This document shows, one piece after another, positions 11,201 through 30,929 of a stretch of DNA of 56,059 bases. The translations under genes and the position numbers were made by a program. Source of the DNA: a virus; the IMG/VR virus record IMGVR_UViG_3300008262_000247, positions 1 to 56,059 of that record. One strand, 5' to 3'. Under the pieces are notes generated by a model that was not told where the DNA came from, ran no database searches, and saw only the letters and a list, made by a program, of their open reading frames with translations. How positions within the stretch are numbered: position 1 is the stretch's first letter; every line of letters starts with the position of its first letter.

Positions 11201-14200
11201 AGCGACAGGTTCACAATTACAACAAACTATTGATGGTATTATATACGCGAGTAATGTTGCACAAAAAGTAATTCAAGGTATAGAATATCAACAATTGACC
11301 GGTAGTTTAGCGAGTGCTTCTTTAGCATTAAAAAATAACAAAGGATTTATTATAGATGAAACCATAGCATATATGAGTTCATCTTGGGGTTCATTTGATT
11401 ATAACGAAACAACGTGCCGTAGAGATTTAAATTACATTATTGATTCGGTTAGAACTGATTTAGTATATGGTGGTAATCAAAGAACTAGATTATCTGCTGA
11501 ATATTATTTCTTATATCCATCACAGGCAACTGGTTCTCAACTTACACAAACTTTAGATGCTGTAAATTATGCAAGTAGAATAGCACAAAAAGTTGTAGTT
11601 GGACAAAACTTTATTGCAGCCAATACTAATAAATTAAATTTACCATCTGTAGCGGTATTGGCAGCAGCGGAATTAGTAAGAGCGGATATACCATTTATAC
11701 AACAAAATGTAATTGATTATACAAACGATACCTATCCAAAATTAAATTATAATCAGGCTAAATGTTTCAGAGATGTTAGATTTATTACCGATGCGGTAAT
11801 TACTGATTTAGTATATGGTGGTAATGAAAGAACTATTGAAGCTGGAACATTCTATTATCTATACCCATCGCAGGCAACTGATGACCAATTAGATGAAACA
11901 ATTGATGCAATTAATTTTGGTAGAGATTTAACTAAATTGGTTGCAATAGGTGGACTTGAAGTTGAAAGAAGTTTTGATGTAATTTCAAAAATTATAGCGA
12001 GTGGAAGTAATGGATACCCATCAACAATTATAAAAAATACTGAAAGTGCAATAAAAGCAACAAATATTAATCAAACTACATCATCTAATGTTGTAATAGA
12101 ATCTGATAAATTATTAGTATCTTCTTCATTTTCTAATATTATTAATATAATAGCAAATGGCACTGGGTCTATACCAACAATAGTTTCATCTTCATTTAAA
12201 GGAATACTCTTTAGCACCGGTTCACAAACAACATCATCAATAACACCAAATAATACTGAAATTAATAAAGTTAATTCTTCATTTGATGTTGTGACAAATA
12301 TAATAGCAAATGGTACTGGTTCAATTCCAACATTAATAACAAATGCAACAGGTTCAATAAAAAGAACAAACACTTTACAATTTACTACAACCGCATCTAT
12401 TTCTCAAGCAAATATAAACTTGTTCAAATCATCTATTGATATTGTTTTAGATATTGTAGAAAATGGTACAGGTTCAATTCCTTCTTTAGTAAAAAATACC
12501 GATGGATTAATAAAAGTTACAAATGCCGTACAAACAGTTGCAACTGGTTCTACATCTAGATCTGTAATAAACTCTATTACTTCTAGTTTTGATACTGTTA
12601 TTAATGTAATAAGTAATGGAACTGGTTCAATACCTTCTTTGGTAACGAATACGGTAAATAATATAAAAAGGACATTAGAAACACAATATATAGGAACTGG
12701 TTCGGCAACAAACGCCGAATCACAAATTATATCTGCATCAATTGGTATAGTTTCAAATATCGTATCAAATGGAACAGGAAGTTTGCCAGTAGTTATTCAA
12801 TATACATCTGCATCTACAAATACTAATGTAATAACTGCATATAATATTCTTAAAAACAATATTACATTTATACAAGAAGAAACAATTGCATATCTTTCTT
12901 CTTCTTGGAGTGGATTTGTTTATGATGAAGAAAAATGTAAGAGAGATGTTGGATTTATTTTAAGTGGTTCAGCAGAAGATTTATTGTGGAATTCAAACTC
13001 TGCATCAATTGTAAATGGTAAGTTCTATTATGAATATCCATCACAAGCTACCGTAGGAAATGATGGTGATACTGGTGGACAATTAAATCAAACATTAGAA
13101 GGAATTGAATATGCTAGCCGTTTGGCACAAAAAGTGGTTTTAAATACTTTATTTGTAACACAATCTACTGAAATAACTAATGCATATAATTTAATACGAA
13201 ATAATAAATCATTTATTCAAAGTGAATCTATTTCATACATAAGTTCTTCTTGGAGTACACATACATATAACCAACTAAGTTGTAGTAGAGATATTTCTTA
13301 TATTATAGATGCTGTTACAACCGATATATACTATGGTGGTAATGAAAGAGCATCTAAAGCTGGTTTATATTATTTCTTATATCCATCTGAAGCAACTGGT
13401 TCTCAATTAGATGAAACTGTAACCGGAATAAATTACGCTAAAAATCTTTCAAATAGAATATTAAAAGGCGGTTTATTACAATCAGTTACTAATAATAAAC
13501 TTCAGGCTAAAGAGTTAATATTCAATAACAAACAATTTATAGCAAATGAAGTAATTGCATATGTTTCTGCTAGTTGGAATGGATTTGTTTACAACGAGGA
13601 AACTTGTAAAAGAGATGTTGGTTATATTTTAGATGCAGCCATAACTGATTTAGTATATGGTGGTAATGAAAGAAGTATTGAAGCTGGTAAATTTTATTAT
13701 TTATATCCATCCGAAGCAACTACAACTCAATTAGGTCCAACTTTAAGTGGTATTAAGCACGCAAAAGGAATGAGTGAGAATGTAATGAAGAATTTAACTT
13801 ATTATACTTCTTCCGTTTCTGCTCAAACTGCATATGATTTGTTAGTTCAAAATAAACAACTTATACAAAACGAAACAATAGCGTTTGTAAGTTCTTCTTG
13901 GAGTTTCTTCAACTACAACGAAGCAAGTTGTAGTAGAGATACTGGCTACATTGTAGATGCGGTAGCAACTGATATTCTTTATGGTGGAAACGAAAGAGTA
14001 AGAGAGGCAGGAGAATACTATTACTTATATCCTTCATTAGCAACTGTTGATGGAGATGGGGATGCAGCTGGACAATTAGGACAAACTTTGGATGGTATTA
14101 ATTACGCTAAAGGTATTGCTAAAAAGATTGTATCAAATCAATTATTACAAACCGCAAGTATTTCAGAATTAACTGCTTGGACATTGTTAAGACAAAACAA

Positions 14201-17200
14201 ACCATTAATTCAAGCGGAAACAATTGCATACTTAAGTTCTTCTTGGACAGGTGTAGATGGATTCTACTACAATGAGGCTAGTTGTTCAAGAGATGTGGCA
14301 TATATCGTAGATAATGTGGCAACTGATATTTTGTATGGTGGTAATGAAAGAAGTTCTAAAGCAGGAGAATATTACTATCTGTACCCATCTAAAGCAATTG
14401 TTGGTGGAGTACCTTCTCAAACTGCACAATTGGAGCAAACGATAGATGGTGTACTATTTGCAGCAGGTAACGCACAAAATGTAATATCAAATAGAGTATT
14501 AACACAGCCAACCGAATTTGTATCATCTTCGGTTGAATTAATGAGAAAGAATAGAACGTTTATTCAAAATGAAACAATACAATACATAGACGCTTTCTAT
14601 CCTGATTTAGTTTACAATAGAGAGAAGTGTAGAAGGGATGTTGGGTATATTGTTGATAATGTAGCAACTGATTTGTGGTACGGTGGTAATGAAAGAGCAA
14701 TAACAGCCGGTCAATACTACTATTTATATCCTTCATTGGCAACAAAAACAGAACAAGTAAGAGAAACTGTATCAGGTGTTCAATATGCTAAAAATGTAGC
14801 TAGAAAAGTAGTTCAAAATATATTATTATCATCACCGCTATTATTATCAAATACAAATAATAACATTAAAGTTGGTAATATAAATCAAATTACATCTTCT
14901 ATTACTCCAAATGAAACTGAAGTAAACGGAATCAGTTCATCTTTTTCTATTGTTACTAAAATAATAGAAGGTGGATTGAGTGCGGCACCAACTAAAGTTT
15001 CTAATAGCTATAACACAATTAAAGTAACAAATGAAACTCAATACAAAACATTAGTTTCTGCTAGTTCAACTGAAATTGGTATTGTAACTGCATCGTTTGG
15101 ATTAATTAGAGATATAATTTATAAAGGTGATGCATCTTTACCTGATGCATTAGCTGAAAATTTCCAATATGGATTTGAAAATACAATTCCATCATTATTG
15201 CATATATCATCAATTGAACAAACTGCGGGTGGTGGTGTTGGATATAATTCATATACCTCTAGTATTAGTTCTTCATTTGCAAATGTAATTAAAATAATTA
15301 ACAATGGTACTGGTTCTATACCATCAATTGTAGAAAATACATCTGGTAGTATAAAGGCACAATCAATAGTATCTCAACTATTACCAGCAACCGATGGTGG
15401 AAAATATCAAAGAGATAGAATTGCAAATTTATATGATGTTGTTTTGGATATAATTGAAAATGAAACATATTCAACATTAATTCCAAATACATCAGCAAGT
15501 GTTAAAGTAACAAATACCCCACAATTTTTAAGTGGAAGTGGTGCAGACAGAATACAGGCTAAACTTGTATCTGCATCATTTGGTATTGTTACATCCATAC
15601 TTACAAATGGAACTGCATCGTTTGGATATGTTGGACCAAATGCAACACCTAATTCAAATAATAAAGTTAATTTAGCATATAACTTGTTATTGAATAATAA
15701 ACAAATGATTGTAGATGAAACTATAACATTTATGAGTTCATCTTGGAGTTCGTTTGAATATAATGAAGCAAGTTGCAGTAGAGATTTAGGATTTATTATT
15801 GATGGTGCAGCATATGACCTTCTTTATGGTGGAAATTCTGCATCGTTTGTAAATGGTAAATACTATTACGATTTCCCATCACAGGCAACTGGTTCTCAAT
15901 TAGACCAAACTGTGACAGCGATTAAGTTTGCAAGTGGGTTAGCGGAAAAAGTTGTTAGAAATATAACACTACAACATATTTCAGCATCAGCAGAAACATC
16001 AGCATCTTATGTGACATTAAGAAATAATAAATCATTTATACAAGCCGAAGCTATAACTTACTTATCTTCTTCTTGGAGTGAGTTTGATTATAATGAAACA
16101 ACTTGTAAAAGAGATATTGCATACATTATAGATGCAGTTTCAACTGACCTTCTTTATGGTGGAAATGAAAGAAGTTGGGTAGCAGGTGATTACTATTTTA
16201 GATATCCATCACAAGCAACTGATTCGCAACTACAACCAACATTAGATGGTATTGGATATGCTAAAGGATTATCAATGAGAGTAATCTCTGGTTCTGCTTT
16301 AACAAATGCAACATCGGATATATTGAATGTTTATAACTTGTTAAAAGATAATAAAGAATTTATACAAGAAGAAGTTGTGGCGTTTGTAAATGCAAAATAT
16401 CCTAACTTATATTATAGTCAAACTAAATGTAGACGTGATATTGGATACATTGTAGATGCGGTAATTACTGATTTTAAATGGGGTGGTAATCAAAGAAGTT
16501 CTAAAGCAGGTGAGTTCTATTATCTATATCCTTCTTTGGCAACTGAATCCGAACAAGTAGTTGAAACAACAACTGCAGTTGATTATGCTAGAAGATTGTG
16601 TGAACAAATTATAATAGGAAACGTAATAGAAACACCGCAAGTTGTACTAAATACTGCAAATAATATTAAAGTAACAAATATTCCGCAATACACTTCAGCA
16701 TCATCTGCAACAGTTTATGAAGTTAATAGAGTAAGTTCTTCATTTGCAGTTGTAACTAATACTGTTGAAAATGGATTAGGAGTGTTACCTACGATTATAT
16801 CAAATGTATCTGAAAGTATTAAAGTAACATTAACTTCACAAATTGGTGGAAATGCTGCTACACAAACTGAATCCGATTATATTAGTTCATCAATTTCAAT
16901 TGTAACTGATATTATACAAAATGGCACAGGTTCATTCCCTATATTAACTTCATATGGCGCAGCATCTACTGACCCTAACGTAATAAATGCATATAACAAT
17001 TTAATTCAAAATATTCCATTTATTCAATCAGAAACTATTGCTTATATTAGTTCTTCATGGAGTTTCTTTAATTATAATGAAGCAAGTTGTAGCAGAGATG
17101 TAGCTTATATTGTAAGTGGAGCAGCTGAAGATTTATTACATAATTCCACATCCGCATCATATATGAACGGATATTATTACTTCTTATTCCCATCAAACGC

Positions 17201-19649
17201 AACTGTAATTGGTGATGGTGATGGAATTGGACAATTAGGACAAACTTTGGATGGTATTAACTACGCAAGTAAATTAGCACAACAAATAGTGTTAGGTACA
17301 ACATTTGTTTCACCTTCTACTGAAAGAAAAGTAGCAGCAGAATTGTTGAAATTAAACAAATCATTCATCGCAGCGGAAACTATTGCATATATTAGTTCAT
17401 CTTGGGTGACTGGTTCTAATTCAGATGTGGCATTTACTTACAACGATTTAAGTTGTAGCAGAGATGTAAACTATATTTTAGATAATGTAGCAACTGATAT
17501 TTTATATGGTGGTAACGAAAGAACTATTAAAGCGGCTTCTTATTATTTCTTATATCCTTCACAAGCGACCGGTTCGCAATTAGATGAAACGTTGGATGGT
17601 ATTAGATATGCTGGACAATTAGCGGAGAAAGTTATTGTTAATACATTATTTGTAACTGCATCTGCACACGCTTCAGCATCTTATAACTTAATGAAAATAA
17701 ATAAACCATTCATCCAATCAGAAACTATCGCGTATGTTAGTTCTTCTTGGGTTGGCTTTAATTATAGTGAAGCTAAATGCCGTAGAGATGTTGGTTTATT
17801 AATAGATGCGGTTTCAACTGATATATTATATGGTGGAAATGAAAGAAGTGCTAAAGCTGGTACTTACTATTTCAAATATCCATCATCTGCAACTGGTTCT
17901 CAATTAGAACCAACCGTAAACGCAATTGATTTTGCAGGTGGAGTAGCTAAAAATATAATTCAAAACTTAACATTCATAACCGCATCTCAATCAGTATCCG
18001 CATCAGTTGCATTACTAAGAGATAATAGAGGATTTATACAAGAAGAAACAATGCAGTACTTAACTGCTAGTTGGAGTACATTTGATTATGATAAAGTTAA
18101 GTGCAGAAGAGACGTTGGATACATTTTAGATGGTGTAGCAACTGACCTATTATATGGTGGAAATGAAAGAAGTGTAATGAGTGGTGAATTCTACTTTAAG
18201 TATCCATCTAAAGCAACTTTATTAGGTGATGGTGATGGTGAAGGGCAATTAAAACAAACTGTAGAAGGAATTAATTATGCAAGTAGAATTTCACAAAAAG
18301 TTTCACAAAATATAGTATTCCAAACAGCATCATTGGAAGTATCCGCATCATTTGATTTATTAAGAAAAAATAAATCGTTCATAGCAGCGGAAACAATTGA
18401 ATATGTATCTTCATCTTGGAGTACTGTGGTTTACAACCAAGCTAGTTGTTCTCGTGATGTTGGATATATTATAGATGCAGCAGCAACTGACCTATTATAT
18501 GGTGGAACTGAAAGAAGTATTACCGCGGGAACATACTACTATTTATTCCCATCAAGAGCAACTAATGCGGGTGTTCCATCTGAAGCTAATCAATTAGACC
18601 CAACTACTACTGGTGTAAAATATGCGGGTAGATTAGCTAAAAAAATAATTACTAATCCGGTATTTAATTCACCATCACAATCAGTTTTATATGGTAGAGA
18701 ATTGTTGCAAAAAAATAAATCATTTATCCAAAAAGAAACTATAACATTCTTAAGTTCTTCTTGGAGTACTTTACAATACAACGAAATAAGTTGTTCTCGT
18801 GATATTGGATTTATTTTAGATGCAATTACAACTGATTTGGTTTATGGTGGTAATGAAAGAAGTATTGAAGCGGGTTCTTACTATTATAAGATTCCTTCAG
18901 TAGCAATTAAAGAATCATATACGGATAATGGTACGGTTGGACAGAAAAAACAAACTGTTGATGGAATTAATTACGCAAAAGGAGTATCTGAAAAAGTAGC
19001 TGGACAATTTGCATTAACTCCACCACCAACAAAACGTAAAGAAGCTTATCAAAGATTACTTGCGGCTAAAGAAGAATTAAAACAAAGAGCAATTGGATAT
19101 ACAAATGGAGCATTCCCATATTTAGTATATAATGAGGCAAGTTGTAGTAGAGACACCGGTTTGATTGTAGATGCGGTAGCAACTGACTTATTGTATGGTG
19201 GTAACGAAAGAAGTATTGCGGCGGCATCTTCTTACTACACAGGACAATATGGAAGTGCAGCGGCAGTAATTAACGCACAAAAATTGGAGACTCTTGAAAC
19301 AAACAGATATTTAAGAACGAGAGCTGAGTTTATCGCAGCTGGAGCACCATTGGAATCATTTGGTTCTCTAATTGTGGCAACCGGTATTGACTACTCTTAT
19401 AATGGTAGTGGTGTGACATTTAAAGCACTTCCACCGAATCAGGGTGGTAGTGGTGTGGCGAATCCGATTTATGAGATTACCGAATTGGCGGGTGGTAGAA
19501 TTTACTTTACCTCTGGTAACCAAGATGGTGACTTTAGAATTGGTACTGGTTTGAGTATTAACCAAGCGACTGGTACTCTTGTGGGTAGAACATTTAGTAA
19601 ATCTCTATTCTCATTAGTAACTCCGTTCTCATTGGCATTAGAAGCATAA
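8169..19649 (+). CDS. Giant virion protein, main part: two alternating repeat families
   Basis: 3,826 codons open in one frame. The apparent start is a TTG inside the previous frame, so the true start is probably ATG 7133. Two repeat types alternate. Type A (about 45-60 residues, SSSFxIVxxIIxNGTGSxP.L) forms spacer tracts. Type B (about 95-110 residues) runs NNKxFIQxETIAYLSSSWS, YNExxCxRDxGYIxDAVxTD, LYGGNERSxxAGxYYYxYPS. I count 22 type B copies by the C-x-R-D core, in five groups of 3, 3, 6, 3 and 7. Related RD...GGN domains occur in cyanophage structural proteins. Residues about 206-315 are a cupredoxin-like domain that has lost its copper ligands. The last ~150 residues (GGSGVANPIYEITELAGGRI, DGDFRIGTGLSINQATGTL) are a non-repeated cap. 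Probably a very long tail-associated filament or ruler-like fiber. Confidence 0.75.
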   Translation: MVCMVCMLVVASNIEEIVSDFNLISAIVDSGTSNFPTLLARSSNKGYGFDSPYNILGTEQITASYSASNEDLSQISSSFGVTLGIFADGTGSYSFTTNTNSGVKTTNQTPITATIPATGFISSSISSSFSTIISILKSGLTATPSLVTNLSASIIATDTPFSSSGISSSLSVINNVSASLSIVYNIVANGTGSNTLSIPVNHQQNFTVVNSGSSAYTFNGLGNNPTLTLFRGETYKFYISASEAIGGIDYPFWIRTQQVEGIDKIYDYNKGVINNGDSVGNITFKVPYDAPNTLYYVARNNKNLGGKINIVNNSATPINLIASTLTYPPTVYSSSIASDSTDKINAYDLILNNKKFIQDETIAYLSSSWSDFSYDETTCRRDIGYIIDGVAKDLLYGGNEESIRSGLFYYQYPSEATTTQLSPTLTAIKYFSRLIEKILKNQNFVEPNIDRESAWDCILNNRQFIQNETIAYLSSSWSTFEYNEEKCKRDVGYILDAVATDIKYEGNERSIEAGRFYYLYPSQATGSQLVQTIDGIKYAAGLVKNLIVNKTFVTASQTTQAAYSLIRNNKSLVQDETIQFINVAYPTLEYNQAKCRRDVGYILDGVATDLLYGGNERSVASGRFYYDFPSIATSTQKRETAGGIRYAKIITEYIVQNIILDTPRIIANDEKGIKISALTNITSSYSGSLNEQVSISSSFNIVEGIIKKGVDSIKAIVAKNTDSNWSLNNPLKVSLNNQITNSYVTPDEVNRIGDNFDIVTSIINNGTGSLPILTSSVSGLYKVSDIEQISATSATNAETASISSSFANIINIIKNGTGSLQPFTSSVNDNIKATATNYSQLIGGNSTYSSSISASMKVITDVLQNGLSSLPVLVNNSTTGSLIKVGNVSQVTTSSLDTNLSASLFVSRSISIVVDILRTGNLDVAKTPYVTQSLVSDKQSLASSHIVANLDFIKEETIAYLSSSWSGFDYNEEKCRRDVGLIISGAAQDLYWGNISASIVNGQYYFEYPSQATGSQLQQTIDGIIYASNVAQKVIQGIEYQQLTGSLASASLALKNNKGFIIDETIAYMSSSWGSFDYNETTCRRDLNYIIDSVRTDLVYGGNQRTRLSAEYYFLYPSQATGSQLTQTLDAVNYASRIAQKVVVGQNFIAANTNKLNLPSVAVLAAAELVRADIPFIQQNVIDYTNDTYPKLNYNQAKCFRDVRFITDAVITDLVYGGNERTIEAGTFYYLYPSQATDDQLDETIDAINFGRDLTKLVAIGGLEVERSFDVISKIIASGSNGYPSTIIKNTESAIKATNINQTTSSNVVIESDKLLVSSSFSNIINIIANGTGSIPTIVSSSFKGILFSTGSQTTSSITPNNTEINKVNSSFDVVTNIIANGTGSIPTLITNATGSIKRTNTLQFTTTASISQANINLFKSSIDIVLDIVENGTGSIPSLVKNTDGLIKVTNAVQTVATGSTSRSVINSITSSFDTVINVISNGTGSIPSLVTNTVNNIKRTLETQYIGTGSATNAESQIISASIGIVSNIVSNGTGSLPVVIQYTSASTNTNVITAYNILKNNITFIQEETIAYLSSSWSGFVYDEEKCKRDVGFILSGSAEDLLWNSNSASIVNGKFYYEYPSQATVGNDGDTGGQLNQTLEGIEYASRLAQKVVLNTLFVTQSTEITNAYNLIRNNKSFIQSESISYISSSWSTHTYNQLSCSRDISYIIDAVTTDIYYGGNERASKAGLYYFLYPSEATGSQLDETVTGINYAKNLSNRILKGGLLQSVTNNKLQAKELIFNNKQFIANEVIAYVSASWNGFVYNEETCKRDVGYILDAAITDLVYGGNERSIEAGKFYYLYPSEATTTQLGPTLSGIKHAKGMSENVMKNLTYYTSSVSAQTAYDLLVQNKQLIQNETIAFVSSSWSFFNYNEASCSRDTGYIVDAVATDILYGGNERVREAGEYYYLYPSLATVDGDGDAAGQLGQTLDGINYAKGIAKKIVSNQLLQTASISELTAWTLLRQNKPLIQAETIAYLSSSWTGVDGFYYNEASCSRDVAYIVDNVATDILYGGNERSSKAGEYYYLYPSKAIVGGVPSQTAQLEQTIDGVLFAAGNAQNVISNRVLTQPTEFVSSSVELMRKNRTFIQNETIQYIDAFYPDLVYNREKCRRDVGYIVDNVATDLWYGGNERAITAGQYYYLYPSLATKTEQVRETVSGVQYAKNVARKVVQNILLSSPLLLSNTNNNIKVGNINQITSSITPNETEVNGISSSFSIVTKIIEGGLSAAPTKVSNSYNTIKVTNETQYKTLVSASSTEIGIVTASFGLIRDIIYKGDASLPDALAENFQYGFENTIPSLLHISSIEQTAGGGVGYNSYTSSISSSFANVIKIINNGTGSIPSIVENTSGSIKAQSIVSQLLPATDGGKYQRDRIANLYDVVLDIIENETYSTLIPNTSASVKVTNTPQFLSGSGADRIQAKLVSASFGIVTSILTNGTASFGYVGPNATPNSNNKVNLAYNLLLNNKQMIVDETITFMSSSWSSFEYNEASCSRDLGFIIDGAAYDLLYGGNSASFVNGKYYYDFPSQATGSQLDQTVTAIKFASGLAEKVVRNITLQHISASAETSASYVTLRNNKSFIQAEAITYLSSSWSEFDYNETTCKRDIAYIIDAVSTDLLYGGNERSWVAGDYYFRYPSQATDSQLQPTLDGIGYAKGLSMRVISGSALTNATSDILNVYNLLKDNKEFIQEEVVAFVNAKYPNLYYSQTKCRRDIGYIVDAVITDFKWGGNQRSSKAGEFYYLYPSLATESEQVVETTTAVDYARRLCEQIIIGNVIETPQVVLNTANNIKVTNIPQYTSASSATVYEVNRVSSSFAVVTNTVENGLGVLPTIISNVSESIKVTLTSQIGGNAATQTESDYISSSISIVTDIIQNGTGSFPILTSYGAASTDPNVINAYNNLIQNIPFIQSETIAYISSSWSFFNYNEASCSRDVAYIVSGAAEDLLHNSTSASYMNGYYYFLFPSNATVIGDGDGIGQLGQTLDGINYASKLAQQIVLGTTFVSPSTERKVAAELLKLNKSFIAAETIAYISSSWVTGSNSDVAFTYNDLSCSRDVNYILDNVATDILYGGNERTIKAASYYFLYPSQATGSQLDETLDGIRYAGQLAEKVIVNTLFVTASAHASASYNLMKINKPFIQSETIAYVSSSWVGFNYSEAKCRRDVGLLIDAVSTDILYGGNERSAKAGTYYFKYPSSATGSQLEPTVNAIDFAGGVAKNIIQNLTFITASQSVSASVALLRDNRGFIQEETMQYLTASWSTFDYDKVKCRRDVGYILDGVATDLLYGGNERSVMSGEFYFKYPSKATLLGDGDGEGQLKQTVEGINYASRISQKVSQNIVFQTASLEVSASFDLLRKNKSFIAAETIEYVSSSWSTVVYNQASCSRDVGYIIDAAATDLLYGGTERSITAGTYYYLFPSRATNAGVPSEANQLDPTTTGVKYAGRLAKKIITNPVFNSPSQSVLYGRELLQKNKSFIQKETITFLSSSWSTLQYNEISCSRDIGFILDAITTDLVYGGNERSIEAGSYYYKIPSVAIKESYTDNGTVGQKKQTVDGINYAKGVSEKVAGQFALTPPPTKRKEAYQRLLAAKEELKQRAIGYTNGAFPYLVYNEASCSRDTGLIVDAVATDLLYGGNERSIAAASSYYTGQYGSAAAVINAQKLETLETNRYLRTRAEFIAAGAPLESFGSLIVATGIDYSYNGSGVTFKALPPNQGGSGVANPIYEITELAGGRIYFTSGNQDGDFRIGTGLSINQATGTLVGRTFSKSLFSLVTPFSLALEA
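9190..19260 (+). repeat. Array of 22 type B protein repeats in five groups
   Basis: Copies are recognised by the C-x-R-D core and the LYGGNERS / YYYxYPS stretch. Approximate groups are 9190-10150 (3 copies), 10990-11960 (3), 12830-14830 (6), 15660-16630 (3) and 16980-19260 (7). The first copy of groups 2-5 carries an NSAS-type loop in place of GGNERS. The last copy of each group has a YP-type segment (such as AYPTLEY) where the others have SSSWS. The repeats are conserved at the protein level but diverged in DNA, so they are old duplications under selection. Confidence 0.8.
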
Positions 19650-20633: not shown

Positions 20634-23600
20634 ATGGCCAAAAGTAACTTATTAAGTAATAGGGTTAAACCCGTTAGTCCCAAAAATGTATCTGCAGATA
20701 GATATCAGTTTTTAGATATATCTCAGGCCGAACCAAATTTAGGTGTCCCTAATTTTAGTGCATCCTTATCAGGTTCACCTGCTATCGTAGTTTCAGATGA
20801 CCAGGGTAATAGAGGGTTTGTAAGAAGTTTAGATTTAGATAGAGTAACCGGACAATTTACTGGTTCTTTCACCGGTAGTGCGGAATCCCTAAGCGGTAGT
20901 TTTACAGGTTCTTATACTGGTTCATTCTCTGGTTCATATTTTGGAGATGGTAAAGGATTATTTAATTTACCTGCTGCAACATTTATAGCGAGTGGGTCAT
21001 CAACTGCATCTTTTATTGATAATGACTTAGATATAAATACAAATACTAAGATTCATGGCAATTTATATGTTGATGATGCAATATATGCAGAACAAATAAT
21101 TGTAACATATGTTTCATCTTCTGTAATTTATTCATCTGGTTCAAATATTTTTGGTGACGAAGATTCCGATATACAACAATTCACCGGTTCGGTAAGAATA
21201 CAAAGTGAATTGATTGGTAACAATATTACAGGTTCATCGTTCACTGGTTCATTTACTGGTTCTTTCTTTGGAGACGGTGCGAATTTATTTAATTTACCAC
21301 AAGCTACAAAATTAGCAAGTGGTAGTGTTACTGCGTCTGTATCACCAAACGAAGGATTTAAAGTAATATCAATTGATAGTGGTTCATCATTTACTGGAAG
21401 TTTATTTGTAAGTGGAAACGTTACAATACCTTCTGGTTCTGGATATTTTAGTGGTAGCGGTGAAGGATTATTTAATATCCCTCTTTCTGCACTTAATATT
21501 GATTCTTTAGTAGCTACTAGAATTGCAAGTGGTAGTGTAACTGCATCTGTTTCTCCAACTGAAGGATTTAAAGTACAATCATTACAAAGTGGTTCTCAAT
21601 TTACTGGCTCTGTTTTTGTAAGTGGTAGTTTAATTGCAATATATAGTGGTTCATTTAGTGGTAGTGGTGATAAATTATTTAACATTCCAAGATCTGCACT
21701 CACTCCTGATGCATTAGAATCTGACCGTATAGCAAGTGGTAGTGTAACTGCATCGGTATCTAATGCAGGATTTGTAGTAAATTCAGCCAATTCCGGTTCG
21801 TTCTTTACAGGTAGTGTAAGAATTAGTGGTAGTTTAACAGCAAATGGTGTTAGTGTAAGAAGTGGTTCATTTTTTAGCGGTAGTGGTAGAGACCTTTTTG
21901 ATATTCCACGTTCTGCTTTAACTCCTGATGCGTTAGATTCTACAAGAATTGCAACAGGTTCAGTAACAGCATCTGTTTCACCTGAATTTGGATTTAGAGT
22001 ACAATCCACGATAAGTGGTTCTCAATTTACTGGTTCTTTATTGGTAAGTGGAAATGTTGAATTATATACCGGTTCATTTAGTGGTAGTGGTAAAAATCTT
22101 AGAGAAATTCCTAAATCGGCAATTTCTGATTTAGATACATCATTAATATTCTCTGGTTCTGCAACAGCATCAATTAATCCTGTTAAAGGATTTAATGTAA
22201 ACATATTTTCCCAGTTTACCGGAAGTATGGTTGTATCAGCATCTAATTTTATAATACCAACTTCATCTTTAGATAAAACATTTTATGTAACTAATAATGG
22301 AGCATCTGCATATACGTTTAGTGGTGCAGCTAGTGGTTCAAATCCAACTATAACTTTAGTAAGAGGTGTTACATATACATTTGATGTAAATGCAACTGGA
22401 CATCCTTTTTATATTAAAACGGTACAAACTACTGGACCTGCTTCTGCATATAATGTGGGTGTAACAAATAACGGTGATGATAGTGGTTTAATAATTTTTG
22501 CTGTACAAAATGATGCACCACCTACTTTATATTATAATTGCCAGTTCCATAGTGAAATGGCGGGTGTTATTAATGTTGTAGATAATATTATAAGACCAAG
22601 TGAAATTAAATTTATAGGTGATACAACTATAAGTGGTTCATTGGCATTGAAGGGAGATGATGTTATTGATAGTGGTTTCCAAGAAGGACAAACTGTTGGT
22701 GCATATATAGATGGAAATATACATTTAAAATCTGGTTCATATTTTAGTGGTAGTGGTAAATACATTTTTGATATATCTTTATCAAATTTAACCGGAGATG
22801 CATTTAGAATTGCAAGTGGTAGTGTTACTGCATCCGTTTCACCAACTCAAGGGTTTAAAGTAGAAGCATTAAATGTAGGAAGTCAGTTTACGGGAAGTGT
22901 AAATATTTCTGGTTCACTTACTGCATCTTTAGGTGTAAATGGATATAAATTTGTTGGTACTGAATTTAGTGGTTCATCATTTAGTGGTTCATTTGAAGGA
23001 GATGGTAGTAGATTAAGAAATGTACCATCGGTAGAATCTGCAAAAATAGTATCTGGTTCAGTAACGGCATCAGTTTCTCCTGTATATGGATTTAAAGTTG
23101 AATCTGCGGAGTTTGGTAGTGAATTTACCGGTAGTATAAAACTAAGTAGTGGTTCATCATTTAGTGGTAGTGGTAGAAATCTTTTTGATATTCCTGAATC
23201 TGCACTTTCATTTGCACCTTATAGAATTGCAAGTGGCAGTGTAACTGCATCAGTCGCTCCAAATAGAGGATTTAGAGTAGAATCTTGGGAGTATGGTTCA
23301 GAATTTACTGGCTCATTGATAGTGAGTGGTACTTTGGGTATAAGAGTTGCATCTGGTTCATCATTTAGTGGTAGTGGTAGAAATCTTTTTGATATACCTC
23401 GTTCTGCGATTTCTGATTTAGATACATCGTTAATATTCTCTGGCTCTGCAACCGCATCTATTTCACCAAATAAAGGATTGCTTGTAAATACAGGTGTAAC
23501 CATTGGTGGTTATCTATTTACAACTGGTTCGGCAACTTTCTATGGTACATCTAGATTTACTTCAGGTGTATCTGCATCTGTATTTAGTGGTAGTGGTGCA

Positions 23601-26600
23601 GGATTGACTGATATTCCATTCTCTGCATTATCTCAAGAATTATTTAGAATTGCGAGCGGTTCGGTAACAGCTTCGGCATTACCAGATAGAGGATTTATTG
23701 TAGAAACTGGAAATTTAGGAGCTAGAATTAGTGGTTCATTATTTGTAAGTGGTGGATATGGTGGTGTTATACAAGCGGCTACCGGTTCTTGGTTTAGTGG
23801 TAGTGGTAGAGGTTTATTTGATATCCCAAGAAATGCATTAACTGAAGACGCATTACTTACAACTGAAATCAAATCAGGTTCGGTAACTGCTTCGGTTGAT
23901 CCTGATAGAGGATTTATTGTAAAATCGGTAGCAAGCGGTTCAGAATTTACTGGTTCTATTGATGTAAGTGGTAGTGTTAGTGTAATTAGTGGTTCTTACT
24001 TTATTGGTGATGGTAGATACCTTTCAAATATTACATTAGCTAATATAGCAATTGATTCAACAAAAATATTTAGTGGTTCTGCAACCGCATCAATTTCACC
24101 TGATGATGGATTTAATATAAACGTACAATCCACTTTGAGTGGTAGTTTGTATGTATATGCAACTGATAGAGAAACACCATCGTATTTAATTGATACCGTA
24201 TTTAATGTTTCAAATGATGGAAGTAGTGCATATACGTTTAGTGGTGCAGCGAATGGTTCAAATCCAATTATAACATTGGTTAGAGGTGTTGAATACACTT
24301 TTAATGTTAATGCTGGTGGACATCCTTTTTATATTAAATTCCAAAATTCAACCGGTACATCAAATATAGTTAGTGGAAGTATTACAAATAATGGTGTTGA
24401 TGTTGGGACATTAACATTTACTCCATATTCTGGTTCACCTGATACATTATTTTATAATTGTCAATACCATTCTTCAATGGCTGGACAAATTAATGTAGTA
24501 GATGCATTAATGTTACCTGCTGAAATTAAATTAGTAGGACCAACCGAAATTACGGGTAGTTTAAATACAACAGGTCCTATATCAGCATCAATGTTTAGTG
24601 GTAGCGGTAGAGGATTATTTGATATTCCTCGTTCTGCATTATCGGAAGAAGTATTCAGAATTGCAAGTGGTAGTGTAACAGCTTCGGTTACTCCAGAAAG
24701 AGGATTTTTAGTTGAATCATTAGAAAGTGGTTCTACCTTTAGCGGTAGTATCTTTATGGCTAGTGGTTCGTTTATCAGTTCATCTGGTAGATTGTTTTTT
24801 GATATACCTCGTTCTGCTCTTACTGAAGATGCGTTAATATCTGCGGAAATTAAATCTGGTTCGGTAACCGCTTCGGTAAGTCCAGTTGATGGATTTAAAG
24901 TATTGACACCATTTACATCTTCAATTGATGAATCTGGTTCATTTAGTACTCAAATAGCATCTCAATTCACCGGTTCAGTATCAATAAGTGGTAGCTTATA
25001 CTTAAATGACCCGAGTGGGGGCTTATTTATAGATTCCGCATCATTTATTTACGCAGAAGGTAGATTCTTAAGAAATATTCCTCGTTCATCTTTAACAGAT
25101 GATGCATTAATATCAACTGAAATTAAATCCGGTTCGGTAACTGCTTCTGTTTCTCCGGTTGATGGGTTCAGAGTAATAACTCCATTCACTGGTTCAGAAG
25201 TTGGTTCTCAATTCACTGGCTCAATTGAAGTTAGTGGAAGTATTAGAGCAACCGAATTCATTTATGGTGATGGTAGATATATTACAAATGTACAAGCGGC
25301 TGCAGCTCCATTGATAGCGAGTGGTAGTGCAACCGCATCAGTAGCAAGTGGTGAATCGTTTGTAGTAATAACTGCAAAAACTGGTTCTGCAGTAGGTTCT
25401 CAATTTACTGGATCAGTATCGGTTAGTGGTTCATTAACTGTGACAGATTTCTTCTATGGTGATGGTAGATATATCACAAATGTACAAGCGGCAGCGGCAC
25501 CATTCATTGGTAGTGGTTCTGCAACTGCATCTGTACAAAGTGGTGATACATTTATTGTAACAACTGGTGCAACTGGCTCCGCATATGGTTCCAGATTTAC
25601 TGGCTCTATTGATGTAAGTGGTAGTATAAAGGCATTTAGTTTTATAGGAGATGGTTCTCAACTTACAAACGTACAAGCGGCAGCAGCTCCATTAATTGCA
25701 AGTGGTTCTGCAACTGCATCGGTGCAAAGTGGAGATACGTTTAGAGTTATAACTTCTAAAACTGGCTCTGGCTTAACATATGATTATGGTTCGGAATTTA
25801 CTGGTTCTTTAATTGTAAGTGGTGCAATTTCGGCATCAATATTCATAGGTGATGGTGGTGGTTTATTTAATATCCCACCTGAAGCGATTGAAAATCTTGA
25901 ATTAGATAAAATTAATTCTGGTTCTGCAAGAGCAATAATTGACCCAACAACATTGGATGTAAACGTACCAATTACCGCGGCACTTTATCGTGGAGATGGT
26001 AGTGGATTATTTAATATCCCATTAGAAGCGTTAGAAGATTTACAATTGGATAGAATTCAATCGGGTTCTAAAGAAGCTGTAATCTCTCCAAACAAAGGAT
26101 TGGAAATAAATACATCAGTAAGAATATTTTCAGGCTCTTTATTTGTAAGTGGTGGTATATTTGTAACCGGCTCTGATGTTGTACTTCAATCTGGTAGTAC
26201 GTTTGTGGGTGATGGTAGTGGATTAAGAAATATCAATATTGCTAATTTATCATTTGAAACATTTATATTAAAGAGTGGTTCATTTACTGCATCAATTTCA
26301 CCGGATAAAGGATTTGTAGTTAATACATCTTCTTCAATTTGGGGAACTCTTTATGTTGGTGATAGTATTAAAGTACAAAATGATATTACATCTTCTCATA
26401 GAATACTTGCACCTTTATTTACCGGTTCATTCTTGGGCACATATAATTTCCAAGGAGTAGGACCTACTGCATCTGCAGAATATGATATTTTAAGATTTGA
26501 TGAAACTAGAGGATACTTTGTACCTCAACCTGAAACTTCATTAACTGAAACTGTATCATTTAATAATGTTAGTGATTTAACAATTGTACACAATTTAGGA

Positions 26601-29600
26601 ATTCGTTATCCAGTTGTGCAAGTTTACGCAACCGGTTCGGAAGACCAAATTATACCTGGTACTGTTAAATCAATTGATGAAGATACAATACAAATTAAAT
26701 TCGCAGGATTAACTTCTGGACATGTTGTAATTGGTAGTGGTGGTTCTTTAATCAATGGTACGATACCGGGTGATAGAGTATTTGGTACGGTTTTATCAGC
26801 ATCTTATGCAAGTAAAGCAGCATTAGCTGATGCTGTAACTGGATTTGATTCGGCATCATTATCGGCATTATCTGCATCTTTGGCAAACGCAAATGCATAT
26901 GTGAGAAATGACCAAACTGCATCAATGGCGGTGTTTAGAGCAGTAAGTTCTTCTTACGCATTAACTGCATCTTATGTAGAAAATTTAAGTGGATTAACTT
27001 TAACAGATTATGTAAGAAATGATGTTACTTCTTCAATGACAGTTTTAAGTGCATCTTATGCAGTTTCAACTTCATATGCAGCTTATGCAGCAAATGCGGC
27101 AAATGTTGATACATCTAACTTTGTATTAGCATCACAAACATCATCTATGTTAGTGGGTACTGCTTCATTGGCATTTACTGCGAGTGTAGCATTATTTGCA
27201 CTAAATGCAGCGAACACCGATACCGCATCATTCTTACAAATTAATAAAGACCAAACAATAAATGCTAGTTTATCTATTAGTGGTAGTTTAACTGTTACTG
27301 GTAGTATTACCGCTGTTAGTGATTTAAAAATAAATGCATTACAAAGTGGTTCATCTGAAGATGTAGTTGTTTGGAATAGTGTAACTAAGCGATTAGAAAA
27401 AAGAAATATAGCAGCCGCAGTTGGTTCATCTGGTACTGCAGGTACATCTGGTAAAGATGGCTCCGGTGGTACATCTGGAACAAGTGGCACGAGTGGCACA
27501 TCTGGTAGTGGTGGCACATCTGGAACTTCTGGAACTTCTGGTACTAGTGGACAAGACGGAACATCTGGTTCTTCTGGAAGTTCTGGTACATCTGGTAGTG
27601 GAGGCACATCTGGAACTTCAGGTACATCGGGTACGAGTGGCACGAGTGGCACATCTGGAAGTTCTGGAAGTAGTGGTACATCTGGTTCATCTGGAAGCTC
27701 AGGTTCATCTGGAAGTTCAGGAACAACCGGTTCAAGCGGTACATCTGGTTCATCTGGAAGCTCCGGCTCATCTGGTAGTAGTGGAAGTTCCGGTACATCC
27801 GGGTCATCCGGAAGTTCAGGAAGTTCAGGAACATCTGGTTCATCTGGTTCATCTGGAAGCAGTGGAAGTAGTGGAAGTTCCGGCTCATCTGGAAGCAGTG
27901 GAAGCTCTGGTTCATCTGGTACTACCGGCTCATCTGGAAGTAGTGGTACATCTGGTACATCCGGGTCATCTGGAAGTGGTGGTTCATCTGGTAGTAGTGG
28001 AAGTTCCGGTTCATCTGGAACAAGAGGTTCTGCAGGTTCATCAGGAAGTTCAGGTACATCTGGTTCCTCTGGTTCATCAGGAAGTAGTGGAAGTAGTGGA
28101 AGTTCTGGTTCATCTGGTACCGGTGGAACAGGTGGTTCATCGGGTAGTTCAGGAACTTCAGGAGAAAGTGGTTCTGCAGGTTCATCGGGTTCTTCTGGTT
28201 CATCTGGTACAAGCGGCAGCTCTGGAACATCTGGAACATCAGGTACGAGTGGACAAGCCGGCAGTAGTGGAACATCTGGTTCTTCTGGAACATCTGGTTC
28301 ATCTGGAAGTAGTGGCACATCCGGCACAAGTGGCACGAGTGGCACATCCGGGTCATCTGGTACATCTGGTACATCTGGTTCATCCGGAAAAGATGGTACT
28401 TCTGGTACTTCAGGTTCTTCTGGAAGTAGTGGTACAAGCGGCAGCTCTGGAACATCTGGAACAAGTGGCACGAGCGGCACATCTGGAACATCTGGTTCTT
28501 CTGGTTCATCTGGAAGTAGTGGAAGTTCTGGAACAACTGGTTCATCGGGAACATCAGGAAGCTCTGGTTCATCTGGTACATCTGGTACTGATGGCACATC
28601 TGGTTCATCTGGTACGAGTGGCACATCGGGAACATCTGGTACAACCGGTTCATCGGGAAGTTCTGGTTCATCTGGAACATCTGGTAAAGATGGAACATCC
28701 GGGTCATCTGGAAGTAGTGGAAGTAGTGGCTCATCTGGTACAACGGGAACATCTGGTACAACCGGTTCATCTGGAAGTAGTGGAAGCAGTGGCACATCTG
28801 GTTCCGATGGCACATCCGGAAGTAGTGGAAGTTCTGGTTCATCTGGTACAACTGGTTCATCTGGTACAACCGGTTCATCTGGAAGTAGTGGAAGTTCGGG
28901 AGAAGATGGAACATCTGGTACAAGTGGGTCTGATGGCACATCTGGAACAGGAGGCTCATCGGGTTCTTCTGGTACAACTGGTTCTTCTGGTACAACTGGT
29001 TCATCAGGAAGTTCTGGAACTAGTGGAAAAGATGGCACATCAGGAACTTCAGGAAGTAGTGGTAAAGATGGCACATCCGGTTCATCTGGTACAACCGGGT
29101 CAGCAGGTACTTCTGGTACATCTGGAACAGGTTCATCTGGAACTTCAGGAAGTAGTGGTGAAGACGGTTCATCGGGTACATCAGGTACATCTGGTAGTAA
29201 TGGCACATCCGGTAGCAGCGGAAGTAGCGGCAGCTCTGGTTCATCTGGAACATCTGGTAAAGATGGTACTTACTTTGGTTCATCGGGTTCATCTGGAAAA
29301 GATGGCACTTCGGGAACATCTGGCTCATCTGGAAGCACAGGTAGTGCAGGAACGGCCGGCACATCTGGAACATCTGGTAAAGATGGTACTTACTTTGGTT
29401 CATCAGGTACATCTGGTAAAGAAGGTACTTCGGGTACTTCTGGTTCATCTGGTTCGGCTGGTTCATCTGGAACTTCAGGAACATCTGGAAGTAGTGGTAA
29501 AGATGGTACATTCTTTGGTTCATCAGGTACATCAGGTGCATCTGGAACATCCGGTTCATCTGGAAGTAGTGGTACGAGTGGCAGCTCTGGTTCATCTGGA

Positions 29601-30929
29601 ACATCTGGTAAAGATGGTACATTCTTTGGTTCATCGGGAACTTCAGGAAGTTCTGGAACATCGGGTACATCTGGTAGCGGTGGCTCATCTGGTACAACTG
29701 GTAGTGCGGGCACATCGGGTAGTGGTGGTTCATCCGGAACTTCAGGAACATCTGGTAAAGATGGTACATTCTTTGGTAGTTCTGGTAAGGATGGTACTAA
29801 TGGTAGCGGTGGCACGGCAGGTACATCTGGTTCATCTGGTAGTAGTGGAAGCTCTGGAACATCTGGTTCATCTGGCACATCGGGTAAAGATGGTACTTTA
29901 TTTGGTTCATCGGGTAGTTCAGGAATTTCTGGAACTGCTGGTTCATCTGGTTCTTCTGGACAAAGTGGAAGCTCTGGTACATCTGGCACATCGGGTAAAG
30001 ATGGTACTTTATTTGGCTCATCCGGTTCATCCGGTACAACAGGCTCTTCTGGTTCATCGGGAGTAAGTGGAAGTTCTGGAAGTAGTGGAAGCTCTGGTAC
30101 ATCTGGCACATCGGGTAAAGATGGTACTTTATTTGGAAGTTCTGGAAGTAGTGGAACGAGTGGTGGAATAGGACCTCAGGGTTCGGCAGGTACATCTGGT
30201 TCATCCGGTACATCTGCACCTGGATTTAGTTCGGGTACATCCGGTGCATCGGGTACATCGGGTTCTTCCGGTACATCTTTTTATGGTGTAACTTCTGGTT
30301 CTTCTGGTACATCCGGTGTTAGTGGTTCATCTGGTACATCTGCACCTGGAATAACTTCTGGTACTTCTGGTTTCTCTGGTACTTCTGGTACATCTGCACC
30401 TGGATTTAGTTCCGGTACATCTGGTACAAATGGAGCACCTGGTAGTAGTGGTAGTTCTGGATTTGCATCAATTAGTGGTACAACTGATAATGGTGTGATA
30501 ACTTTAGAAGGTACATCTCCAAATGTAAGAGCTGAAAGTAATTTAACATTTGATGGAACATTATTAAGTATAACTGGTAATCTAACCAATAGTGGATATA
30601 TTACATCAACAACATTCAGAGAAACCTATTCTGATTTGGGAACTGGTGGAAGTGCAACTTTAGACCTTGCAACAGCTAATAACTTCAGAAGACAATTTAA
30701 TGGAGCGGCAACATTAACATTTAGTAATCCACCTGCATCAAACGCATTTGGATTCACATTGAGTGTTGTAAATGCAGGAGCATATTCAATAACATGGCCA
30801 AATAGTGTAGATTGGCCTGGCGGAAGTGCACCAATCCTTACATCAGCTGGAGTAGATGTTCTAACATTCTTTACATTTAATGGTGGTACAACATATTACG
30901 GATTTATTGTAGGAAAAAATATAAGTTAA
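20634..30929 (+). CDS. Large tail fiber with cupredoxin domains and a collagen-like stalk
   Basis: 3,431 residues in one frame. Residues about 1-170 are an attachment region with FTGS strands. A module follows about 15-20 times to residue ~1800: IASGSVTASVSP, GF.V.S, FTGS..VSGS, FSGSG..LF.IPRSAL. Two cupredoxin-like domains sit at about 549-652 and 1189-1290; both keep a full type-1 copper ligand set (H590, C636, H639, M642 and H1230, C1276, H1279, M1282). Residues about 1960-2030 contain VHNLGIRYPVVQVY, a common phage-fiber domain. An Ala/Ser/Tyr-rich helical region follows. Residues 2264-3275 are a Gly-X-Y collagen-like stalk. The C-terminal ~155 residues (FRETYSDLGTGGSATLDLAT ... TFFTFNGGTTYYGFIVGKN) form a globular tip. 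It probably acts as a long tail fiber in host recognition. Confidence 0.82.
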   Translation: MAKSNLLSNRVKPVSPKNVSADRYQFLDISQAEPNLGVPNFSASLSGSPAIVVSDDQGNRGFVRSLDLDRVTGQFTGSFTGSAESLSGSFTGSYTGSFSGSYFGDGKGLFNLPAATFIASGSSTASFIDNDLDINTNTKIHGNLYVDDAIYAEQIIVTYVSSSVIYSSGSNIFGDEDSDIQQFTGSVRIQSELIGNNITGSSFTGSFTGSFFGDGANLFNLPQATKLASGSVTASVSPNEGFKVISIDSGSSFTGSLFVSGNVTIPSGSGYFSGSGEGLFNIPLSALNIDSLVATRIASGSVTASVSPTEGFKVQSLQSGSQFTGSVFVSGSLIAIYSGSFSGSGDKLFNIPRSALTPDALESDRIASGSVTASVSNAGFVVNSANSGSFFTGSVRISGSLTANGVSVRSGSFFSGSGRDLFDIPRSALTPDALDSTRIATGSVTASVSPEFGFRVQSTISGSQFTGSLLVSGNVELYTGSFSGSGKNLREIPKSAISDLDTSLIFSGSATASINPVKGFNVNIFSQFTGSMVVSASNFIIPTSSLDKTFYVTNNGASAYTFSGAASGSNPTITLVRGVTYTFDVNATGHPFYIKTVQTTGPASAYNVGVTNNGDDSGLIIFAVQNDAPPTLYYNCQFHSEMAGVINVVDNIIRPSEIKFIGDTTISGSLALKGDDVIDSGFQEGQTVGAYIDGNIHLKSGSYFSGSGKYIFDISLSNLTGDAFRIASGSVTASVSPTQGFKVEALNVGSQFTGSVNISGSLTASLGVNGYKFVGTEFSGSSFSGSFEGDGSRLRNVPSVESAKIVSGSVTASVSPVYGFKVESAEFGSEFTGSIKLSSGSSFSGSGRNLFDIPESALSFAPYRIASGSVTASVAPNRGFRVESWEYGSEFTGSLIVSGTLGIRVASGSSFSGSGRNLFDIPRSAISDLDTSLIFSGSATASISPNKGLLVNTGVTIGGYLFTTGSATFYGTSRFTSGVSASVFSGSGAGLTDIPFSALSQELFRIASGSVTASALPDRGFIVETGNLGARISGSLFVSGGYGGVIQAATGSWFSGSGRGLFDIPRNALTEDALLTTEIKSGSVTASVDPDRGFIVKSVASGSEFTGSIDVSGSVSVISGSYFIGDGRYLSNITLANIAIDSTKIFSGSATASISPDDGFNINVQSTLSGSLYVYATDRETPSYLIDTVFNVSNDGSSAYTFSGAANGSNPIITLVRGVEYTFNVNAGGHPFYIKFQNSTGTSNIVSGSITNNGVDVGTLTFTPYSGSPDTLFYNCQYHSSMAGQINVVDALMLPAEIKLVGPTEITGSLNTTGPISASMFSGSGRGLFDIPRSALSEEVFRIASGSVTASVTPERGFLVESLESGSTFSGSIFMASGSFISSSGRLFFDIPRSALTEDALISAEIKSGSVTASVSPVDGFKVLTPFTSSIDESGSFSTQIASQFTGSVSISGSLYLNDPSGGLFIDSASFIYAEGRFLRNIPRSSLTDDALISTEIKSGSVTASVSPVDGFRVITPFTGSEVGSQFTGSIEVSGSIRATEFIYGDGRYITNVQAAAAPLIASGSATASVASGESFVVITAKTGSAVGSQFTGSVSVSGSLTVTDFFYGDGRYITNVQAAAAPFIGSGSATASVQSGDTFIVTTGATGSAYGSRFTGSIDVSGSIKAFSFIGDGSQLTNVQAAAAPLIASGSATASVQSGDTFRVITSKTGSGLTYDYGSEFTGSLIVSGAISASIFIGDGGGLFNIPPEAIENLELDKINSGSARAIIDPTTLDVNVPITAALYRGDGSGLFNIPLEALEDLQLDRIQSGSKEAVISPNKGLEINTSVRIFSGSLFVSGGIFVTGSDVVLQSGSTFVGDGSGLRNINIANLSFETFILKSGSFTASISPDKGFVVNTSSSIWGTLYVGDSIKVQNDITSSHRILAPLFTGSFLGTYNFQGVGPTASAEYDILRFDETRGYFVPQPETSLTETVSFNNVSDLTIVHNLGIRYPVVQVYATGSEDQIIPGTVKSIDEDTIQIKFAGLTSGHVVIGSGGSLINGTIPGDRVFGTVLSASYASKAALADAVTGFDSASLSALSASLANANAYVRNDQTASMAVFRAVSSSYALTASYVENLSGLTLTDYVRNDVTSSMTVLSASYAVSTSYAAYAANAANVDTSNFVLASQTSSMLVGTASLAFTASVALFALNAANTDTASFLQINKDQTINASLSISGSLTVTGSITAVSDLKINALQSGSSEDVVVWNSVTKRLEKRNIAAAVGSSGTAGTSGKDGSGGTSGTSGTSGTSGSGGTSGTSGTSGTSGQDGTSGSSGSSGTSGSGGTSGTSGTSGTSGTSGTSGSSGSSGTSGSSGSSGSSGSSGTTGSSGTSGSSGSSGSSGSSGSSGTSGSSGSSGSSGTSGSSGSSGSSGSSGSSGSSGSSGSSGSSGTTGSSGSSGTSGTSGSSGSGGSSGSSGSSGSSGTRGSAGSSGSSGTSGSSGSSGSSGSSGSSGSSGTGGTGGSSGSSGTSGESGSAGSSGSSGSSGTSGSSGTSGTSGTSGQAGSSGTSGSSGTSGSSGSSGTSGTSGTSGTSGSSGTSGTSGSSGKDGTSGTSGSSGSSGTSGSSGTSGTSGTSGTSGTSGSSGSSGSSGSSGTTGSSGTSGSSGSSGTSGTDGTSGSSGTSGTSGTSGTTGSSGSSGSSGTSGKDGTSGSSGSSGSSGSSGTTGTSGTTGSSGSSGSSGTSGSDGTSGSSGSSGSSGTTGSSGTTGSSGSSGSSGEDGTSGTSGSDGTSGTGGSSGSSGTTGSSGTTGSSGSSGTSGKDGTSGTSGSSGKDGTSGSSGTTGSAGTSGTSGTGSSGTSGSSGEDGSSGTSGTSGSNGTSGSSGSSGSSGSSGTSGKDGTYFGSSGSSGKDGTSGTSGSSGSTGSAGTAGTSGTSGKDGTYFGSSGTSGKEGTSGTSGSSGSAGSSGTSGTSGSSGKDGTFFGSSGTSGASGTSGSSGSSGTSGSSGSSGTSGKDGTFFGSSGTSGSSGTSGTSGSGGSSGTTGSAGTSGSGGSSGTSGTSGKDGTFFGSSGKDGTNGSGGTAGTSGSSGSSGSSGTSGSSGTSGKDGTLFGSSGSSGISGTAGSSGSSGQSGSSGTSGTSGKDGTLFGSSGSSGTTGSSGSSGVSGSSGSSGSSGTSGTSGKDGTLFGSSGSSGTSGGIGPQGSAGTSGSSGTSAPGFSSGTSGASGTSGSSGTSFYGVTSGSSGTSGVSGSSGTSAPGITSGTSGFSGTSGTSAPGFSSGTSGTNGAPGSSGSSGFASISGTTDNGVITLEGTSPNVRAESNLTFDGTLLSITGNLTNSGYITSTTFRETYSDLGTGGSATLDLATANNFRRQFNGAATLTFSNPPASNAFGFTLSVVNAGAYSITWPNSVDWPGGSAPILTSAGVDVLTFFTFNGGTTYYGFIVGKNIS
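22278..22590 (+). other. Cupredoxin-like domain 1 within the large fiber
   Basis: The segment runs from FYVTNNGASAYTF through LVRGVTYTFDV and GHPFYIK to YYNCQFHSEMAG. It has the order of a blue-copper fold with one upstream His (H590) and a Cys-x2-His-x2-Met cluster (C636, H639, M642). That is the ligand spacing I know from amicyanin. Copper binding itself is inferred. Confidence 0.65.
24196..24512 (+). other. Cupredoxin-like domain 2 within the large fiber
   Basis: A second copy with FNVSNDGSSAYTF, LVRGVEYTFNV, GHPFYIKF and YNCQYHSSMAG. Ligand candidates are H1230, C1276, H1279 and M1282, with exactly the same spacing as copy 1 (46 residues from His to Cys). Confidence 0.65.
27423..30458 (+). 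repeat. Collagen-like Gly-X-Y stalk (GSS/GTS repeats) of the large fiber
   Basis: About 1,010 residues of Gly-X-Y triplets, mostly GSS and GTS with occasional GKD, GTT, GAG, GQD and GED. Serine codons alternate among TCA, TCT and AGT/AGC, so the DNA is repetitive but not uniform. Eight copies of GKDGT-(Y/F/L)-FGSSG break the triplet phase near the C-terminal end, at about 29256, 29376, 29496, 29607, 29754, 29883, 29994 and 30114. The region also creates very long shadow frames on both strands, which are not genes. Confidence 0.9.

Follow-up and report, generated by a model that had tools for sequence, protein, structure and literature searches.

The DNA described here, called the window throughout, is a stretch of 56,059 nucleotides making up the whole of the IMG/VR virus record IMGVR_UViG_3300008262_000247, and this account deals with two cupredoxin-like domains, d1 and d2, that are encoded within one long open reading frame (ORF) of this virus. 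From its repetitive shaft, its tail gene neighbourhood and its matches to tail families, the product of 20634-30929 is a phage tail fibre; the PHROG tail-family matches fall mainly in its low-complexity Gly/Ser/Thr-rich part. Both domains are internal in the fibre, being placed between shaft repeats of the GSATAS type, and a third copy of the domain, d3, lies upstream in a giant tail protein (Table 1).

The two fibre domains are about 104 amino acids (aa) each and share 62% identity (E 1.8e-38). A preliminary description of this DNA had named four predicted copper ligands in each, H590/C636/H639/M642 and H1230/C1276/H1279/M1282, and all eight residues were found at those places, together with the GHPFYIK and NCxxHSxM motifs and a His-to-Cys distance of 46 residues in both domains. 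The only two cysteines in the 3431-aa fibre are the predicted ligands C636 and C1276. Codons at the ligand sites vary synonymously (CAT/CAC, TGT/TGC) with the residues constant. A chance motif was ruled out by the homology of d1 to d2 and by the ligand-blind survey described below. A recent tandem duplication, which could have explained the presence of ligands in both copies, was also rejected, because the two are 62% identical, d2 groups with the d2s of other phages (80% support in the tree, with the fork left open) and paired copies recur in relatives.

Table 1. Coordinates in the window of the features discussed in the text.
Feature	Position	Strand	Basis
Tail-fibre ORF carrying d1 and d2, 3431 aa	20634..30929	+	ORF list; PHROGs tail fibre and collagen-like tail families
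Cupredoxin-like domain 1 (d1), all ligands present	22272..22583	+	homology, AlphaFold2, Foldseek, C-terminal part of PHROG 677
Codon of predicted ligand H590 (d1), starting at 22401	22401..22403	+	translation; His in 151/151 ligand-complete relatives
d1 ligand loop C636-x2-H639-x2-M642 (codons start at 22539, 22548 and 22557)	22539..22559	+	translation; ligand survey
Cupredoxin-like domain 2 (d2), all ligands present	24192..24503	+	homology; Pfam PF25489
Codon of predicted ligand H1230 (d2), starting at 24321	24321..24323	+	translation
d2 ligand loop C1276-x2-H1279-x2-M1282 (codons start at 24459, 24468 and 24477)	24459..24479	+	translation
Third copy (d3), ligands replaced, same fold predicted	8781..9101	+	homology, AlphaFold2, Foldseek
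Giant tail protein ORF carrying d3, 3826 aa; start codon mechanical	8169..19649	+	PHROG 4527 short tail fibre protein, E 1.7e-187
Fibre shaft with recurring GS(A/V/F)TAS motif	21321..26298	+	motif at aa 230-1882, spacing mostly 60-80 aa
Gly/Ser/Thr-rich collagen-like fibre region, aa 2261-3161	27414..30116	+	PHROG 1806 collagen-like minor tail

The fold of d1 was modelled with AlphaFold2 from an alignment of 70 locus-derived sequences, giving eight strands at a predicted local distance difference test score (pLDDT) of 95.0 and a predicted template modelling score of 0.87. In this model, d1 has the Greek-key beta-sandwich of about eight strands that defines the cupredoxin fold superfamily. All 50 Foldseek matches listed from the PDB were cupredoxins or cupredoxin-fold enzymes at probability 1.00, with E values between 2.8e-5 and 5.9e-4 among those listed; rusticyanin came first (2.8e-5), followed by CueO, AcoP, copper nitrite reductase and plastocyanin. 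H47 of the model lies between strands 37-43 and 49-52, and C93, H96 and M99 lie between strands 88-93 and 100-106, with the Cys ending the preceding strand. This predicted placement fits a type-1 cupredoxin, in which one His follows an inner strand and the Cys-His-Met cluster occupies the last inter-strand loop. A fold holding the four residues far apart would have counted against a shared site; the fold topology and the joint retention and loss of the ligands speak against such a separation, and the four may converge on one point. The term “amicyanin-type” used in the preliminary description holds for the C-x2-H-x2-M spacing, but not for the fold, the nearest ones being rusticyanin, AcoP and the multicopper oxidases.

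The identity of the matching proteins also bears on which metal the site might hold. With sequence profiles, 11 of the 12 PDB matches at E<=1 were copper proteins, the best being auracyanin B (0.0076), and one was unrelated. A site for Zn or Fe, or a redox-sensitive Cys with no copper, was considered as an alternative. A Cys/His/His/Met set is able to hold Zn(II). Some phage fibres are known to contain iron, bound by HxH motifs (PMC11705849). The alternative is nevertheless improbable, given that type-1 copper sites show this His/Cys/His/Met arrangement on this fold, that there is no HxH motif, and that the solved relatives by fold or profile, the one unrelated profile match aside, are all copper proteins.

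The copy d3, which the preliminary description had missed, matches at 53% identity (E 6e-23) and has Tyr, Ala, Asn and Leu at the ligand positions, all four being replaced. Its relatives in other phages are ligand-less as well, with 19 sequences forming one well-supported clade. The AlphaFold2 model of d3, made from an alignment that included ligand-complete relatives, reached a pLDDT of 92.1, and its listed Foldseek matches were again cupredoxins and cupredoxin-fold enzymes. In d3 a two-residue turn connects the last two strands, where d1 has a six-residue loop carrying the His and Met. One virus carries ligand-complete and ligand-less versions of the same fold, in two tail proteins. Since the ligand-less d3 also matches cupredoxins, the predicted fold assignment seems not to be driven by the ligands alone.

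Conservation of the ligands was surveyed by searching IMG/VR with patterns from the domain's N-terminal half, which is free of ligands; this avoided ligands appearing to be kept merely because the search patterns held them. A first viral scan and a scan of cellular genomes had used ligand-bearing patterns, and both were kept out of the figure given here. The survey set comprised 179 distinct full-length core viral domains, with 29 sequences of a paralogous gp10-type domain set apart; a near-identical contig (L004/L148) holds the same virus's domains and counts as no independent evidence. The ligand set was kept widely among these related phages, with 151/179 domains having H-C-H-M at the exact C-x2-H-x2-M spacing. 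Among the other 28, 27 lacked both the Cys and the second His, one lacked the Cys only and none lacked the second His only, a joint loss with a Fisher p of 3.6e-31 when relatedness is ignored. The first His and the Met were present in 151/151 domains having the Cys and second His, and the scaffold residues R28, G29, Y32, F34, I45, Y57, L83, Y85 and G95 stayed at or near 100% in the 27 ligand-losing domains. On a tree built without the ligand columns, in which many forks are poorly separated, about five changes of state are needed. The retention or loss of the four positions as a set, while the scaffold residues stay, means that they behave as one site, as a shared metal site predicts, and this all-or-none pattern is the strongest evidence here for such a site. 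The identical 46-residue distance from His to Cys in d1 and d2 was dropped as evidence, the family ranging from 43 to 63 (43 in 67 sequences, 46 in 48 and 47 in 25).

The sole single-ligand loss seen concerns two near-identical sequences, L210 and L211 (positions 91-187 of ORF 2731), one with Cys and the other with Ala, a difference that could be either a recent change or a sequencing error.

This survey also bears on the idea that the domain is a metal-free beta-sandwich module for adhesion or connection, derived from a cupredoxin and keeping the ligands for structural reasons. The d3 lineage, which is predicted to fold without ligands, indicates that the fold can serve as a plain module in virions, and phage fibres often bear other beta-sandwich decorations that lack a metal. 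Against this, the site is either kept whole or loses the Cys and second His together on an unchanged scaffold, and a single-ligand loss in 1/179 domains fits a metal site and not four independent structural residues; nor is there any other Cys in the fibre. A metal-free module is accordingly judged unlikely.

The favoured reading, at a probability of roughly two in three, is that d1 and d2 are cupredoxin modules in the fibre shaft, and that each H-C-H-M set most likely binds one copper as a type-1 site or a close variant. Its computed supports are the homology, the fold class, the complete sets of four ligands, which are retained or lost jointly, and the location in tail proteins, and two homologues are recorded as virion proteins; copper binding in the virion is what we infer from them. 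The central claim of the preliminary description, two cupredoxin-like domains with full ligand sets in a tail fibre, is in this respect upheld by the model, the cupredoxin-fold PDB matches and the annotation of tail homologues in cultured phages. Several points weigh on the other side. The Foldseek template modelling scores are moderate, 0.44-0.60 to the query at a root-mean-square deviation of 5-9 Å, and sequence matches to solved cupredoxins are borderline. Against the curated cut-off of 27 bits for Pfam PF25489, d2 scores 29.9 and d1 falls short at 18.7-18.9. In the Pfam search, neither d1 nor d2 reached PF00127 (Copper-bind), which 6/70 relatives match (best E 0.0015) and to which cellular relatives score up to 19.8 bits against a cut-off of 21.2, and a search of NCBIfam gave no useful match. 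In all members the copper site is a prediction from sequence and model, and sequence would look alike for Cu, Zn or a free redox Cys. Finally, d3 keeps its predicted fold without ligands (pLDDT 92), which makes a general requirement of copper for folding unlikely and weakens the earlier suggestion that metal could stabilise the fibre.

The domain is by no means confined to the window. A d1 query against a phage collection returned 338 records, all but one of them named Synechococcus, Prochlorococcus, cyanophage or marine. This domain forms the C-terminal part of PHROG 677 (E 1.1e-27), which is gp9, annotated as “baseplate wedge tail fiber protein connector”; the match is limited to positions 302-411 of 412 and does not span the whole protein, and by sequence the fibre shares a domain with gp9 but is not gp9. 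All ligands are present in 53/53 domains of the metagenomic gp9 clade, and every one of the cultured cyanophages inspected (18 and 3 more) keeps the four, some in more than one copy. They include the gp9 of S-RIM2, S-RIM8, ACG-2014a, ACG-2014d, P-SSM7, S-TIM4, P-RSM1 and S-ShM2, fibres or tail proteins of P-SSM2, P-TIM68 and Bellamy, and proteins of the podoviruses P-GSP1 and P-SCSP2; the domain of S-SKS1 has a C-x4-H spacing instead. Besides the window, the fibres of 16 relatives have at least two domains per ORF, of which 14 are ligand-complete in every copy and the remaining two have one ligand-less copy each; in 12 of these multi-domain fibres, and in that of the window, two copies lie about 610-660 aa apart. 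The same domain, with its ligands kept, is present in tail parts of most known T4-like ocean cyanophages, and this wide spread hints that many virions may carry the predicted copper.

Two of the homologous proteins are tied to the virion itself. The domain protein of S-SZBM1 (498 aa, 146110-147606) corresponds by length, name and gene order to S-SZBM1_206, which was detected in purified virions by mass spectrometry with 9 peptides and 24.9% coverage (PMC9146016). The S-SCSM1 fibre is a virion protein according to its record.

Three further observations were made in these phages. The P-SSM2 tail spike (L309:2821-6105) has two domains, both ligand-complete, and by eye its C-terminus resembles a chaperone domain of the S74 type. 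The protein that follows gp9 in seven loci (L131, L134, L139, L143-L146) holds paralogous domains, some with GHP and YYYC..H..M motifs and others without, which may represent a second cupredoxin-like family in the cyanophage baseplate. In Synechococcus phage S-SCSM2R (PQ898602.1, L308:2788-3294), a 168-aa protein named “PetE” consists of a fibre-type N-terminus fused to the domain, and some of the plastocyanins that automated annotation assigns to cyanophages may be tail proteins.

How such a site might act can be sketched only conditionally. The cytoplasm, where virions are assembled, has almost no free copper, and for that reason the metal would probably be loaded after lysis, from the water or from the host envelope. 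Less surely, copper may fix the loop joining the last two strands and so shape a patch exposed on the surface; known cupredoxins have their second His exposed to solvent. The patch could then dock onto a partner, either a further component of the fibre or baseplate or the cell surface. Contacts between tail parts, or gating, are favoured as the role over recognition of a single receptor, because gp9, a connector, keeps the ligand-complete domain across many cyanophage genera and hosts.

That same distribution counts against the notion that fibre copper is a lure for a receptor with which the host acquires copper, in analogy to the “Trojan Horse” use of iron that has been proposed for marine phages (PMC11705849). 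The location of the domain in adsorption proteins would suit a lure, but in the window fibre the domains sit in the shaft and not at the tip, and no link to a receptor was found, which together leave this explanation highly improbable. A broader form of the copper reading is that, in most T4-like cyanophages and in their relatives from freshwater, the fibres and baseplate-fibre connectors are blue (type-1) copper proteins, that an early step (such as fibre deployment, baseplate docking or attachment) is under the control of copper or of its redox state, and that ligand-less sisters in the same virion mark positions with no need of such control; in this full extent it is doubtful.

The virus itself, a phage of freshwater type, is by its sheath and capsid relatives, all of which are below 60% identity, a distant T4-like myovirus; the nearest annotated phages by these proteins are Microcystis phage Mel-JY01 and Flavobacterium phages of the immuto group. 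Near the two domains, the 56 kb record encodes a major head protein, a head-tail adaptor, a tail sheath and several tail-fibre proteins. Another large ORF of the fibre kind (32981-39049, 2022 aa) has the same Gly/Ser/Thr-rich tail-fibre repeats as the fibre with d1 and d2, and the domain search found no copy of the domain in it. The giant tail protein (8169-19649) shows 22 CxRD motifs, many of them spaced by about 108 aa, and its Cys and YGGNER segments are conserved.

Cellular relatives were sought in 84,980 species genomes, which yielded 21 loci in Marivirga, Gillisia, PS1-clade and OCS116 bacteria, Trueperaceae and others; the patterns used were ligand-bearing, and the result is no measure of conservation. 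Several relatives are short proteins in which secretion or lipoprotein signals were recognised by eye. The ligands are present in nearly all of the relatives, the departures being Gln for Met in L115 and Asn for the first His in L123. L112 and part of L124 resemble phage or prophage fibre genes. The L115:3842 ORF, from an Acidobacteria metagenome-assembled genome, is short and secreted-looking, and its Gln at the axial Met position is as in stellacyanin-type cupredoxins.

The literature searched yielded no report of cupredoxin or plastocyanin-like domains in the tail fibres of phages (subscription journals lay mostly outside it, and priority is unproven), and what was found on cupredoxin and cyanophage together concerned unrelated matter. 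To the extent of that search, this is a known fold and ligand set in a new place, the tail parts of phages. Should copper indeed bind, a group of ocean viruses that ranks among the most abundant would carry it in the adsorption machinery, phage infectivity would be linked to copper availability, copper would join a discussion of metals in phage particles that has so far been about iron only, and the conserved but so far unassigned C-terminal domain of cyanophage gp9 would be explained. There is also a practical warning: a domain of this kind may be taken for a plastocyanin gene of photosynthesis, and the name “PetE” already stands in at least one phage record.

Among known systems, the closest by structure are rusticyanin and AcoP, cupredoxins of Acidithiobacillus that are the top Foldseek matches of both d1 and d3 and share the His-Cys-His-Met set. 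Their GHSF and YYVCQ..GH..GM motifs resemble GHPF and YY.CQ.HS.M of the phage domain, which differs in being about 100 aa long (not 125-155), in its shorter C-x2-H-x2-M loop and in being embedded in a fibre instead of acting as a soluble electron carrier. Amicyanin has the C-x2-H-x2-M loop spacing and the H-C-H-M ligand set, and in both it is like the phage domain (151/151 of the ligand-complete ones); there is no methylamine dehydrogenase partner here, and amicyanin is absent from the sequence-profile matches and from the 50 listed Foldseek matches. Plastocyanin (E 0.078) and auracyanin B (E 0.0076) match by sequence profile; in the alignment with plastocyanin, the ligands of that protein are paired with the Cys, the second His and the Met, and the first His is unpaired. 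These proteins differ in having a longer ligand loop and in being free electron carriers. For the Pfam At5g54830-like domain PF25489, named after a plant protein, d2 scores above the cut-off and d1 below it, and 33/70 members match at E<=0.1. In cyanophage gp9 (PHROG 677), the last 110 or so positions are this domain, whereas the window fibre is without the rest of gp9 and has the domain internally and twice. A further parallel is offered by the phage fibres in which HxH motifs bind iron, such as T4 gp37 and Alteromonas phage R22Y (PMC11705849). There, octahedral iron lies along the axis of the trimer, whereas the phage domain described here has an H-C-H-M set within a single domain for which copper is predicted, and both would be metal sites of phage fibres.

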